Shown here piece after piece: positions 1,750 to 23,737 of a DNA stretch of 64,000 nucleotides. The notes beneath the pieces were generated by a model that had not been told where the DNA came from, searched no databases, and saw only the letters and a list, made by a program, of their open reading frames with translations. The first letter of the stretch is position 1, and every line of letters starts with the position of its first letter. Both the position numbers and the translations under genes were made by a program. The DNA is taken from positions 1,485,849-1,549,848 of the forward strand of contig ML213505.1 in assembly GCA_004369045.1 (NCBI GenBank). Direction: 5' to 3'. Origin of the DNA: Heliocybe sulcata. Its lineage: Eukaryota > Basidiomycota > Agaricomycetes > Gloeophyllales > Gloeophyllaceae.

Positions 1750-2821
1750 ATGCATTCGCCTCCACTACCCGATCGCGTTGCCCCTATCCCACCGCAAGTG
1801 CCTCCTGATAGCGTGTATACGCGCTGCTACTGCGAAGAAAACATCTACCTTTTAGCAACAGAGTTTGAAGCGCGCAGGGATATCAAAGATAGATGGGAAG
1901 TCTGCGTCGCATTCATTTCTAACGCAGGGAAGACAGTAAGTTCGTCCCTCCGTGCGACCGCAGATAGGCCTTGCCCTAAGCCCCTGCCATCCGATAGGTA
2001 GCTCTCTGGAATCAAACCGCCCGCCCGGGACTAGTGGTATGGGACTACCACGTCATCCTCCTTCTCCGTCCCTGGCAAGCCAAGAACGAGACCGCAGATC
2101 GAAAGGGAGCTGCATCATGGGTGTACGATTTCGACACGCAGCTGCCTACGCCCTGTACCGCCCAAGGCATGGCCTCCCATGCATCCCACACGAAGAGACC
2201 CTGAACGGCACGTTTCACTGATAGAATACATCGCATGGACCTTCCCCATACACGGCCAGCTTCCTGAAGAGTATCAGAGGTAAGGAAGAGCGCGCTCCCA
2301 CATCGCCGTTGGCTCACCATCGATCTCTGGTGGCGCGACCTATCCAGTTTCTTCCGAGTCATACCAGCGCCCACGTACCTATCCAACTTCGCATCCGATC
2401 GCTCGCACATGGTACGTACGCCCTCTCATATCCCCTTCCCATCCTACCTCGCCCATGATCTCATTTCATTTCATGAAAACCAAAGATCTCATCTGCATGA
2501 TTTTAGCTCCGTGTTCAGTTAGGAGACGATCACGACGACGTCAGCATTTACAATCCGGAAGGTCGAGACCATGGAAATCCAAATACCGACATGCCCTCAT
2601 TGGTCAAGGAACGAGAGGACGCCCGATACATTTCGCCGCCGCCCGGGTATCCTGCGATATGCGGGCCACGCGCGAAGGAGAAAGGCGTCAAGACAAACTT
2701 GATGGAGGCATTCGTGCGCATGAACAATACTGGGTGTAGAACGGAGTGCAAGATAGAAGAGGTGGAGACGTATGGTCAGGTACTCGACCTGGAGGGCTTC
2801 CGGGCGTGGTGTCATGCGTAG
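1750..2821 (+). CDS. NTAQ1: Protein N-terminal glutamine amidohydrolase
   Basis: NTAQ1 deamidates an N-terminal Gln to Glu, which is then arginylated and read as a degron by the Arg/N-degron pathway. Five exons join in frame: 1750-1935, 1998-2166, 2225-2279, 2348-2411 and 2519-2821, giving 258 residues, a little longer than the ~205-residue animal enzymes. All hallmarks are visible: CYCEEN with the catalytic Cys at residue 28 (the same number as in human), VWDYHV with the catalytic His (~80), [11 protein letters not shown] with the catalytic Asp (~108), then NFASDRSHM and a PPPGYP segment near the C-terminus. The second intron (2167-2224) must use a GC donor (CAAG|GCATGG) to keep the frame and join the conserved blocks. 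Nothing is missing, so the enzyme should be active. Its neighbours, F-box and BTB genes, are also degradation-related, but a functional link is only inference. Confidence 0.93.
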
Positions 2822-3382
2822 AGCCCGGTTCCGCCCGCCGGCGACGCTCACATACAGAGAACCTCCAGGAATGACGAGGAAAGCAAACGCTGAATCGGTG
2901 CCTGACCACAGACGCATGACGACATGCAGATTCCCCGCACTTCAGACCGATGAAGAAGCGAAATCTTCCAATGCCCAGATATCTAGATCACAGCCCTGTA
3001 GATTCCCGCCGGTCCGCTAGGTAGGAAGCCAATTAGAGTAGAGCAGGGAGGCGGTATATTTCATAGAGCAAGTCTAGAGCAAGTCGAAGATGGCTTGCAG
3101 TCTAACGTGATGTCCAGTTTCTCGTGAGTACGGCCGTTCCATGAGCGGCAGAAGGCAGAGTCATGTGAAAAATGACGGTCGACGAAATCCGATAGAGACG
3201 TCTAGAAAATAGAGAAAGAAGAAACTGGTCAATTGTCTACACTGGAGCTCTTGTCAGCGAGCTACCACGGATAAATCGGAGAATACAAACGTATGGGTAT
3301 CCGGATAGGTCCACTAGCTCCTTCGTCCGCAGTACCGATTCCTTGACCACCTGTCGATAAACCTACTGAGACGCTTAACAAG
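2822..3382. other. Convergent intergenic region
   Basis: NTAQ1 and the F-box gene end towards each other here. Open frames are short and overlap NTAQ1's last exon on the other strand. No structured element was seen. If the F-box gene uses a donor at its last codons (a GTGCGT just before the stop), part of this stretch could be extra coding sequence. Confidence 0.4.
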
Positions 3383-4812
3383 CTACAGGTACGCACCTAT
3401 GTCATTCTCACTGCGGAGAGCGACGGCTGTCCTGCTCTTCGCCTCCACGGATTTGGCAGACAAAGCATGACGCGCCAGCAGGTATTCCATCTCGTTCCTG
3501 GCATCGCTGAGAAAGCCTTCAAGAATCTCCGCGGACAACGCGCGCAATGGGCTCGATGTTGAGAACATAAAGTGGCGGTACCACATGCTGATGCGCGGGA
3601 AGCCGGCGTCGGGCAGCCAGATACCCCAACGGTGTCGGTCGAAAGGAATCTCGGCTGCGAGGCGGTTAGTACAGGTGACTTCCTGCATGATAGGAGCGTA
3701 TTTGTGACTCACTTATAAACTGGCAAGTCTCTAGGGTTGGGCAAGCTCTGCCGAGTTTTGTCGACATTGTGTAATCATCACACATTGTGTAGATGCTCGC
3801 TACTGGATTTTGCCCGCAGCCAGCGGCGAGCTTCAATCTCTGCAGGCGGCTGAAGTTTGGCAGGACTTCTAGCAACACGTTGACAAAGGACTGATGTAAC
3901 ATGATTATTAGAGTGGTTTACCGTGCAGAGACACAAGGCACCCACGTCGTACGCTTCATCGGCATAAAGATCCTCGGTAGAGTTGCTGATAATGAGCGTG
4001 TCTATTCTGGCCAGATGATTTGCGACCGAGCGCAGAAGAGGCTCGGACCATGCCTCCAACTCGGTTGCGAACAACCCAACCGGAGCAGTCGAAGTACCTA
4101 ATACTTGCATAGTCGCGTCCATGTGCGCAAATTCTGTACTGTCCCATACGACGTGCACAGCTTGTAGCGGAGATGTCGAGACGAAGAGAGGCATCGCGGA
4201 GCTGCTGCAGACCAGAGCGGTTAATCGGGGGAGGGTCAGGGGCGCATATGGACATTCAACGGAGCTGTCATGAGGGCTACGGGTGAGGTACAGGTTGGTT
4301 ATACGAGGATGGCGACGGAGAAACTCGACGACATCTTCGTCAATGCTGAGATAGTGGAACGCCTCGAGCTTCGGGAACGTGCACTTCCGCAAGAGTGGCC
4401 CGTACTCGGGCAGACTACTTGCGATCCCAAGGGAAGTTACGTTTTCACAGCCGCTTATAGCCCTCTCTAAGAGGGTATAAAAGGATTTGAAACGCTTTTG
4501 CGAGGTCCTATCACCGCTCACAGTAAAAACCGCTCACGAGCAAATAGTCATCGCTTAGTCTGCAACTCACGTCGCGATAGATAATGTCTTCACGGACTGC
4601 GCGGCGAGAGGATTGCCAGCAAGCGTCTTCAGGGCTCCAATTAGGGTATCAGGAGCCTCTAGTTTGAGACGGCGGTATATGATACGAGTTGCGACGGCAT
4701 TGAAGAGCTTCGATACGAGAGCCAGAGCCAGAGAATCACCCCGACAGACTTCCGCGACTTCCTCCACCAGTTCCACAGGCAGATCTCCAAAATGCGCGCC
4801 CTCCGGTTGCAT
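3383..4812 (-). CDS. F-box protein
   Basis: Four exons on the minus strand join in frame: 4812-4571, 4516-3946, 3890-3713 and 3654-3383, giving about 420 residues. The first ~50 residues form an F-box (GDLPVELVEEVAEVC, then LALVSKLFNAVATRIIYRRL), which would bind Skp1 in an SCF ubiquitin ligase. The rest has repeated Leu-rich segments (for example LPRLTALVC, RRHPRITNLYL, LPNFSRLQRLKL) like the irregular LRR-type substrate region of mushroom F-box proteins. F-box families are greatly expanded in Agaricomycetes, so the target cannot be inferred. The second intron has two possible phase-0 donors; I chose the one giving a 55-nt intron over one giving ~31 nt. The C-terminal stop lies next to a plausible donor, so the true end is uncertain. 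Confidence 0.75.
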
Positions 4813-20502: not shown

Positions 20503-23500
20503 TCAGCCATTAGATGAACGAACGTGCGCTAAAGCGATGTATACATTGAAAGACAGCATTTTCATGAAGGCGATGGATTCGATCAGGACCTCCACCGCGG
20601 CGGGGGCGCTCGCACTTGATACCTGCAACAAGCAGAGATCAACAACTTCCCCCGTGAAGGCTGATAGTGGAGGGAGAACGTACGGAACAGTGATACCCAG
20701 CCCCTTCTCCTTCTCCACGCAAATATCAAACACGAGATCACCGCTCGCCTGGTCCCACCGCACCGCGCACCAGTTCCTCCTACCCATGATATACTTTTGC
20801 TTCAACGGGTTTCCCCTTGTGTCATTCTGGAATAGAGGGATCATGACTTCGTCCGTCTGCGCGTGGTGCAGCGTCCGGTGCACTTTGCTCGCGAGTGTCG
20901 AGACCATGGTGATGACACCTCCGGGTGGTCTGCCCAATTGCAATGCGTCAGCCTGAATGCTTCTCCGGAGCGGTAAGAGAGGAACACGTACGGCGTATTG
21001 ACAATCGCGCTCGTCACGACACTGATCATATACCGATGATCCACGGACGGAGGGAGCGCCTTCCCCTTCTTCCCCACGAACGTCATGAACGCACCCACGG
21101 CCGCGCAATGCACGTCCCCGGACAAGAACGACACGCGGACACACCACTGTGCCGCAAAGTCTTGCAGGCGCTGGACAAACTGGTTACGCTCTTTCTTGTG
21201 ACTCGTGGCAGTCCAGTGGTCGTTCTGCATGCATGCGTTGACTATGAAGAGGGACTGACGAGATGGTAAAGAAGGAACGTACGAGATCATCCAGCAATTC
21301 CGCATCCGCATTGAATTTGTTTACAAAGCCTGTGAGCCCCATGGACCCATTCCTGCCCAGGGCGACCAGAGGATTGAATTTCGATTCCAACATGGTCTCC
21401 ATAAAGACCATGCGAGGATAGGCAATCGGTATACCTAATATCGTCATCGTAACGAAAATCCACAACATCCAAAAACGTGCATACCAAGTTGCACGATCAG
21501 ATGTTCGACGTGAAATGGCACGTGCGACAATCTGTCGAAAACCTTCTGATACTCCAAAGGACTACACACTTGATCTTTGCGTCGCTCCGCTCTGTATGAA
21601 CAGTGAGCACAATCGACCTCCCAACGAGCTCGTCTCTTATACTCTTACCGACAGTCCAACAGTAACATACGCACATTCGGCCCCATATACGCCAGGAAGG
21701 AATGGGACGGGTACGGCACGTAAGGCCCCAGTCCCCCAATAATTAGTGATTTGCTGACGTGCTTTCCCGGCGCATCGTCAAGGCCGTCCACCTCAGCTGT
21801 TCATGTAGAAGGTCAGAGATTATATCAGATGAAAGTTCTATAGCACGTACGATTGATGAAGCACTGGAAGAGCAGGAAGAAGAAATACCCTCGAGAGCCA
21901 ATCCTGTCACCAATATACTTAGTGGCCGGGATATTTTTAGATGGGGAGGTGGCAATACCTCTTAAAGACAGGCGACAATTGAAGATCGTCAGGATCTGCA
22001 GACAGTTAGTTTCTGTCTGATATTGGACATGACGACTGCATGTACTCACAACTTCCGAACCCATCAATCTCATTATTATCCTCGCTCAGCTGAAACGTGA
22101 CCAATCGACGTCAACAAGGAAGCTCACCAAATCTGGATAGAAACGCATATCAGATTACCTTTGCATGATATGTGGCAACTGTCTAAAGATGCTACGCACC
22201 ATGATCATCTAATAATTCATACACCTTATCAGTACAGAGAAGAACCTGATTATCAGATAACTCATACCACACATGTTCATCATCGGACTACAGAGCAGAG
22301 GCGGTCAGTCTTCTAGTAAGCCCTCAAGTACATGTTGCACTCACATGGACGAATTCGCCCTAGCAAAGGCGCCGCTGCGGAAGCTCTGGCAGTAATGATT
22401 GAAATAAAACCGGTCTATCGCAAGCACAATCTCCTCGCTGAGTTGGTATCTTCTCTTCTCCTCCGGCTTCGCAAGAGTAACCCATTCCTGCAGTTCAGGT
22501 TCTCGTGTTAAACTGTTGGCACGTTCCTTCAGTCCTGCCTCTCGCAGCAGCGATCCGAGTACCTACCCGTCGCAGTACAGTTGGTCGCCGCCTCCAACGA
22601 GTGCATGGAACGGTTCTTCTTGGTGCTTCGCGAGAAGGTCCACCCACACAGGGTCATATCCGGTCTGGAAACCGGGACCGCGGAAGGTGTCAGGGTTCAC
22701 TCCCGCACTAAACCCGTTGCACTGGGCAGAGAAATGGGTACCATGTGACTAAATGCAGAAGAGGAACTTACGGAATACGCAGCCCATCTCATATTCTGCG
22801 TTAGCCCTGGAACCCAGAACACTAGGTCTTGGCCGTGATTGATACGGTATTTAACGCGCATCTCGTTCTGTGCCAGGGGAACCTGAATGAGGAACCTCCA
22901 AAACGTGAAGGTCCTTCGTAGAGTTAGCGCATTATTTCGGTATTTCCGCAAAGATATATATCAGGCATACCCTCCGTTCCCAGCATAGACCCATATATCG
23001 TGCCCGGGGACCTGTTCGACCCGGTAATTAGGCCCATGACTAACCGTGCCATTCATCTCTTCTTCGTGAGCCACAAAGACAGAGTGCGGATCAGCAGGAT
23101 GAGGGGCGAGGTCAAAGGACATTGGGTTCCGTCGATGTGTTCTGTGGAACACCGGCGGCGCGTCCGGGTCCCATTCGTATGTCAAGTTGGGATGCGGGTC
23201 ATACTCGGACCCGGCATCAGCGGCTGAGGCATATGAGTATGAATTTACGAAGCATCCTTGTCATCCCATACGCACTGACTATCAAGGCTGCGCCATGCCA
23301 TATGCCTTGTTCGTCGACGGTATCATAACGCAACAAAGGCCCGACCATAAACTGCAAGTGCGGTTCCATGCGCGCAGCCTTCAGCAGCTTCGACCTCTCT
23401 ATAGGGCTCATACCCGCTAGCTGACTAGCGACGCTGGTATACGACCTCGCACTGCTGTCTTGTCTCGGTCTTCCGAAATATTCATGGTCCTTCGGAGGTA

Positions 23501-23737
23501 CTGCAGGAGGTAGCGGCGAGGGAGGCGCAGTGGTAGCAAATCCACCGATGAAACGCTCATCCATGGGCATAATCTGCTCGACGGGCTGAAAGCGTCCATC
23601 CGGGCCTCTGAATATCTGACGGTGGGTCCCATCCTACGGACGAGCGAGTTCCCGTCAATGTGCTGACCTTCCAACAGCGTGACGCATAGACTTGCCTTCT
23701 GGGCTGAACGCCGAGCCCGCCATCCTGGCTCATCCAT
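20503..23737 (-). CDS. PhoD-like metallophosphatase, 17 exons
   Basis: Exons: 23737-23696, 23633-23276, 23223-22971, 22913-22772, 22721-22567, 22512-22345, 22287-22268, 22208-22200, 22132-22128, 22068-22050, 21995-21959, 21903-21851, 21796-21649, 21591-21485, 21434-21283, 21224-20992 and 20929-20503; they sum to 775 residues in frame. The protein matches the large fungal PhoD-like family (yeast YGR266W type): YRSFTSVASQ-type N-terminus, TFWRFLIQVPL, GGGDQLYCDG (~residue 309), the metal-binding DDHDLIDGFGSYPDDLQ (~380), GSRGYFFFLLFQCF, HLIVQLGIPIAYPRM, GFVNKFNADAELLDDL, HKKERN and FLSGDVHCAAVG (~590). PhoD enzymes are two-metal phosphodiesterases; the physiological substrate of this branch is unknown. 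The first intron needs a GC donor (AAG|GCAAGT). Four consecutive exons are only 20, 9, 5 and 19 nt and together encode the DDHD motif region. Confidence 0.92.

Follow-up and report, generated by a model that had tools for sequence, protein, structure and literature searches.

The 64,000-nucleotide stretch of Heliocybe sulcata DNA analysed here, hereafter the window, carries on its minus strand an intact gene for a fungal PhoD_2 phosphatase, a putative metal-dependent enzyme. The gene model (20583..23737) has 18 exons and 17 introns, and its coding sequence of 2187 nt runs without interruption across all 18 exons to encode 728 aa. The 714 residues from exon 2 onward match the Pfam family PF19050 (PhoD_2) with 227.2 bits (E 3.6e-67), above the family cut-off of 22 bits, and the DDHD motif lies at residues 380–383. 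Within the genome, which is 31.6 Mb long with a G+C content of 53% in a 264-kb sample, this is the only PhoD_2 locus among the matches listed (at least 6 for a 429-aa query and at least 2 for PF19050). Searches by sequence returned no PDB relative at E ≤ 1, and no orthologue in prokaryotic genomes (12 pattern matches, none confirmed) or in viral contigs. A match to DprA_WH in the same protein, at 16.6 bits, falls below its cut-off of 22.9 and was taken as chance.

The first intron (window 23634-23695, minus strand) is apparently of the GC-AG type, with the donor AAG/GCAAGT; it is required by a tentative start at 23737, which places a tentative first exon at 23737-23696 on the minus strand. Another intron, at window 22914-22970 (minus strand), ends in AAG, a minor acceptor type present in 50 of 573 predicted introns.

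The exon run across the DDHD block

In the middle of the gene, the conserved DDHD block appears to be interrupted by five spliceosomal introns in close succession, with exons of 20, 9, 5 and probably 19 nt between them, an arrangement that we regard as likely when taken as a whole. In the direction of transcription, the features are as follows.

22345..22512, minus strand: 168-nt exon directly upstream of the run (..LTREPELQEW..ARANSS(I)), from our own model and the ab initio parse
22288..22344, minus strand: intron, 57 nt, GTGAGT..TAG, from parse enumeration
22268..22287, minus strand: microexon 1, 20 nt, (I)PMMNMC(D), from the sequence, the ab initio parse and profile masking
22209..22267, minus strand: intron, 59 nt, GTATGA..TAG, from parse enumeration
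22200..22208, minus strand: microexon 2, 9 nt, ATGATCATG, (D)DH(D) of DDHD, frame-neutral, from the sequence, the ab initio parse and masking
22133..22199, minus strand: intron, 67 nt, GTGCGT..CAG, from parse enumeration
22128..22132, minus strand: microexon 3, 5 nt, ATTTG, (D)L, from the sequence, the ab initio parse and masking
22069..22127, minus strand: intron, 59 nt, GTGAGC..ATGAG, with a probable branch point GCTGAG whose A lies 17 nt before the 3′ end
22090, minus strand: rival end of that intron, which would then be 38 nt long and end in TTTCAG
22050..22068, minus strand: probable microexon 4, 19 nt, IDGFGS(Y), from the sequence and profile masking
22050-22089, minus strand: rival microexon 4, 40 nt, adding LSEDNNE ahead of the 19-nt sequence, the choice of the splice model on its own
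21996..22049, minus strand: intron, 54 nt, GTGAGT..CAG, from parse enumeration
21959..21995, minus strand: 37-nt exon downstream of the run, (Y)PDDLQLSPVFK(R), from our own model and the ab initio parse

The original prediction, which had called the gene PhoD-like and placed exons of 20, 9, 5 and 19 nt at 22287-22268, 22208-22200, 22132-22128 and 22068-22050, agrees with the family match and with the sequence, where all four stretches are present and the 5-nt exon ATTTG is preceded by TCTATCCAG and followed by GTGAGC. Its flanking introns of 59–71 nt need correction, to 59, 67 and 59 nt between the exons and 57 and 54 nt on the outside. Joined in frame, the four microexons read ..SSIPMMNMCDDHDLIDGFGSYPDDLQLSPVF.. 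inside the uninterrupted coding sequence; the joined stretch, ..ANSSIPMMNMCDDHDLIDGFGSYPDDLQLSPVF.., is in frame with both neighbouring exons, and the peptide across all four is ..NMCDDHDLIDGFGSYPDD... If a coding microexon is defined as an internal exon of at most ~30 nt, bounded by GT-AG introns and read in a frame consistent with the family, the 20-, 9- and 5-nt exons are coding microexons. Their splice sites lie within the range of the sites on which our splice model was trained, at the 49th, 19th and 86th percentile for the acceptors and the 22nd, 81st and 34th for the donors, respectively.

The family profile provides one line of evidence for these exons. Over a 124-aa core scored against PF19050, the microexon model reaches 63.4 bits, with residues 4–102 aligned to profile positions 98–196 at equal lengths. 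The match thus passes through the DDHD-site block free of insertions, provided that the last exon takes its 19-nt form. Masking the residues of single exons lowers the score in every case, to 54.8 bits for IPMMNMC of the 20-nt exon (−8.6), 54.4 for DDH of the 9-nt exon (−9.0), 58.9 for DL of the 5-nt exon (−4.5) and 45.1 for IDGFGS of the 19-nt exon (−18.3), so each exon contributes to the match. None of nine alternative translations reaches the 63.4 bits of the predicted parse: skipping the 9-nt exon gives 50.9 bits and skipping the 5- and 19-nt exons together 29.0, extending the last exon to 40 nt (7 more residues) gives 51.7 and to 31 nt (4 more residues) 54.3, and five further parses give 50.4, 59.2, 40.6, 43.0 and 57.3.

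A gene finder that uses no homology, built from coding statistics, matrices for donors, acceptors and branch points, and intron length, provides a second line. Its training set comprised the window and twenty 10-kb stretches of the same genome, 264 kb in all; one of these 21 sequences holds N letters, which were treated as random bases. The seeds were 46 long open frames and 10 PhoD_2 introns that are not adjacent to the tiny exons, and retraining used only introns with at least 60 nt of exon on each side, of which the last round held 348 (median length 55 nt, quartiles 51 and 60). The ab initio parse reproduces the 20-, 9- and 5-nt exons to the nucleotide and then places a 40-nt exon (22089-22050) instead of the 19-nt one. 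The ab initio gene spans 29864 to 20503, with upstream genes fused in and the last intron read through, and the whole run produced 5 zero-length internal exons, which are included in the count of 573 predicted introns and in the counts of exon runs given below. Because the seeds of the splice model included 10 other introns of the PhoD_2 gene and its training covered just 264 kb, we count its origin against the explanation that we prefer.

We then enumerated all stop-free, frame-keeping parses between the flanking anchors, with GT-AG introns of 35–400 nt. Among the 10,610 frame-valid parses, the three highest ranks all hold the 20-, 9- and 5-nt exons and differ solely in the last acceptor, scoring 19.5 nats with a last exon of 40 nt, 17.8 with 31 nt and 16.2 with 19 nt. 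DDHD is encoded by 42 of the 10,610 parses and CDDHDLIDGFGSYPDD by 2.

A chance control was made with 200 dinucleotide shuffles and introns of 45–150 nt, a range that leaves out the 38-nt rival intron. The best real score, 17.8, is reached by none of the 200 shuffles (maximum 13.2, median 2.9); DDHD occurs in any parse of only 1 shuffle, and DDHD followed by DGFG within 12 residues in none of the 200. Tiny exons as such do arise in shuffled DNA: the best parse has at least three exons of ≤20 nt in 16 of 200 shuffles. A parse with no internal exon below 25 nt also exists in 190 shuffles, and in 27 of these the gain in score from tiny exons equals or exceeds the real gain. The signal therefore resides in the total score together with the encoded motif, not in the small exons alone. 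Judged from the sequence, the 20-, 9- and 5-nt exons are close to certain as gene structure, and the fourth, 19-nt exon is probable.

The fourth exon and alternative readings

Two starts upstream of 22068 are in frame with it: 22080, after a GAG acceptor, gives a 31-nt exon with DNNE added, and 22089, after a CAG acceptor, gives a 40-nt exon with LSEDNNE added and a 38-nt intron. The acceptor at 22068 is itself poor. It reads ATGAG, with G at −3 and without a pyrimidine tract, and its score ranks at the 0th percentile among the training acceptors; GAG acceptors are found in none of the 573 predicted introns and AAG acceptors in 50. The strongest competitor to the 19-nt form keeps the 20-, 9- and 5-nt exons and follows them with the 40-nt exon (22089-22050), whose LSEDNNE would be a lineage-specific insertion after DDHDL, in the peptide ..DDHDLLSEDNNEIDGFG... 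This form is both the ab initio choice and rank 1 of the enumeration, its CAG acceptor (TTTCAG) ranks at the 23rd percentile among the training sites, and the insertion is in frame and stop-free. Nevertheless, we consider it unlikely. Its 38-nt intron is the only one of ≤40 nt among the 573 predicted introns, and is present there because the model chose it; the 40-nt form also loses 11.7 bits of family score.

The geometry of the branch point is a further point against the 40-nt exon. In the 38-nt intron, the sole good branch point is GTTGAC, with its A just 17 nt from the 5′ splice site, below the 5th percentile of 19. In the 59-nt intron that precedes the 19-nt exon, the A of GCTGAG lies 42 nt from the 5′ site and 17 nt from the AG, and the training medians are 38 and 15.5 nt (288 introns with a strong branch site). 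The TTTCAG of the rival ends just upstream of this branch A. On the strength of this geometry and of the 11.7 bits, we hold the 19-nt form with good confidence, as a matter of judgement and not of computed odds.

Possible variation in the use of the exons can be read from the frame. Of the 15 combinations of the four exons that could be skipped, 5 have a length that is a multiple of three. Four of these (9; 5+19; 20+9+19; 9+5+19) would give proteins of 712–725 aa, and the fifth (20+19) meets a stop; with the other 10 combinations also truncated, 11 of 15 skips would truncate the protein. Retention of any single one of the five introns would leave a protein of 373–404 aa, a truncation in 5 of 5 cases. 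Skipping the 5-nt exon alone leads to a stop right after DDHD, and skipping the 9-nt exon keeps the frame and deletes exactly DDH, leaving 725 aa. As most splicing errors would truncate the protein, constitutive inclusion is the simplest expectation, and inclusion of all four microexons should be constitutive.

The 9-nt exon might instead be an alternative, frame-neutral cassette within the best gene structure, skipped under some condition to yield a near full-length phosphatase of 725 aa without its metal-binding motif. A microexon that acts as a switch is reported in Trichoderma Xlr2 (extract of PMC11121469), and if the same were true here, skipping would be a splice switch that shuts the enzyme off at an unchanged protein level. 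However, the splice sites of the 9-nt exon are not notably weak, with the acceptor and donor percentiles given above, and its 20-, 5- and 19-nt neighbours are singly not frame-neutral, so that loose regulation would mostly truncate the protein; we think such a cassette, and such skipping, very unlikely.

Splicing through larger exons, without microexons and with DDHD lost or replaced, is more improbable again. A frame-valid parse in which all internal exons are at least 25 nt does exist, at rank 20 with 10.5 nats, but it stands 9 nats under the best parse and lacks DDHD. Its translation scores 50.4 bits against 63.4, with a best stretch that covers profile positions 144–196 instead of 98–196, and the shuffles never provide a readable DDHD..DGFG by chance. 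The original prediction had also held that keeping the family block in frame needs the tiny exons and that such exons will usually be mis-annotated. The first point is borne out by this parse, and for this gene an annotation with microexons disallowed would be in error. A predictor with such a rule loses the catalytic motif, and a working enzyme would be recorded as damaged.

Finally, nested introns (stwintrons), reported from fungi, and recently inserted introner copies are barely credible causes of the crowding. The bases between the introns are required for the reading frame, since without the 5-nt exon a stop directly follows DDHD and without the 9-nt exon DDH is lost, which argues against a stwintron. 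The 238-nt stretch matches only itself in a search of the genome that skipped very common words, which speaks against an introner.

Recognition of the run and microexons elsewhere

Exons this small in series had been placed at the edge of what exon definition can handle. This limit is probably not relevant to the run, since the flanking introns, at 54–67 nt, are ordinary when compared with the training median of 55 nt. Introns of such ordinary short size suggest that the intron, not the exon, would be the recognised unit in Heliocybe sulcata. In the extract of PMC8378409, recognition in yeast is described as taking place across the intron, where Prp40 forms a bridge between U1 and the branch-point protein, and the intron is given as the recognised unit for short introns as well. 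The same study, in worm, proposes intron-spanning splicing for microexons that are too small for exon definition, and reports that a shorter flanking intron relieves the requirement for PRP-40.

The Heliocybe sulcata run, whose use in RNA we infer, is thus most likely recognised by intron definition. Each intron of 54–67 nt would be recognised as a unit, with a bridge from U1 at the 5′ site to the branch-point protein, and the length of the exon would then be of little consequence. Because two complexes would hardly fit around a 5-nt exon at once, the introns would probably leave one by one, each removal lengthening the exon available to the next. The run could serve as a compact natural substrate for how an intron-definition spliceosome treats a 5-nt exon and for the order of intron removal.

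Tiny exons are not unusual in wood-decay fungi, and those described here are of a kind already known. In the white-rot fungus Phlebia radiata, predicted gene models are described that contain exons of 2 nt and of a single codon; the extract of PMC6540522 mentions neither a PhoD case nor a run over a catalytic motif. In Phanerochaete chrysosporium, nearly one-third of P450 genes have microexons, the shortest of 6 bp, and these genes likewise have frequent small introns (45–55 bp) in a white-rot host; this is another gene family, and the extract of PMC1184071 does not speak of four microexons in a row. Similar in one respect is CYP621A of Fusarium, where a one-nucleotide exon common to 20 orthologues, with RNA reads in two species, lies in a conserved motif and was revealed by the requirement for a reading frame (extract of PMC12940212), as is the case here; unlike the run, it is a single microexon. 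With exons of one to three nucleotides already described (extracts of PMC12940212 and PMC6540522), our findings leave unchanged what is known of the size limits of fungal exons.

Neighbouring microexons are also known. Plant Peptidase M1 genes have adjacent microexons of 5 and 12 nt (extracts of PMC8831610 and PMC11096116), and human RPS24 has a run of 3-, 18- and 22-bp microexons that is alternatively spliced (extract of PMC12686416). As described there, these examples resemble the PhoD_2 run in that they are difficult to detect and escape annotation or read mapping, and differ from it in having two or three consecutive microexons, not four, and in being supported by RNA. Among the titles listed in literature searches, none deals with microexons in a fungal PhoD gene; where PhoD was among the terms, the best 15 of 180 papers include none with PhoD in its text. 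In the extracts surveyed, no four consecutive microexons across a catalytic motif appeared.

Within the sampled part of the genome, the PhoD_2 run is the only run of at least three exons of ≤20 nt in 50 predicted genes with 525 internal exons. Runs of two such exons number five in the same 50 genes, one of which includes a zero-length artefact. If 16 introns are placed at random in a coding sequence of 2142 nt, four consecutive exons of ≤20 nt have a 0.3% chance of arising, and 0.07 genes with four in a row would be expected by chance among 50, so that some should be present in a genome with thousands of genes. In the ab initio predictions, with the 5 zero-length exons dropped, there are 520 internal exons, of which 5 have a length of ≤5 nt, against 14.9 expected under random intron placement, and 38 a length of ≤20 nt, against 57.4 expected. 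Very small exons are thus, if anything, rarer than random in these predicted genes, and the deficit at ≤5 nt, taken from ab initio predictions, is a hint that selection acts against them. One of the sampled 10-kb stretches (L027) has many predicted exons of 6–18 nt on its plus strand, at ~2480-4380, which may mark another microexon-rich gene or a false prediction.

A second PhoD gene, which belongs to PF09423 (293.7 bits), lies ~180 kb away at C3:1327534-1329239. It is predicted to have exons of 22, 26, 16 and 3 nt in a row, together with one of 8 nt, located away from its DDHE motif. Masking costs 26.7 bits for the 22-nt exon, 10.5 for the 26-nt exon and 2.3 for the 16-nt exon, and dropping the 3-nt exon costs 2.4 bits.
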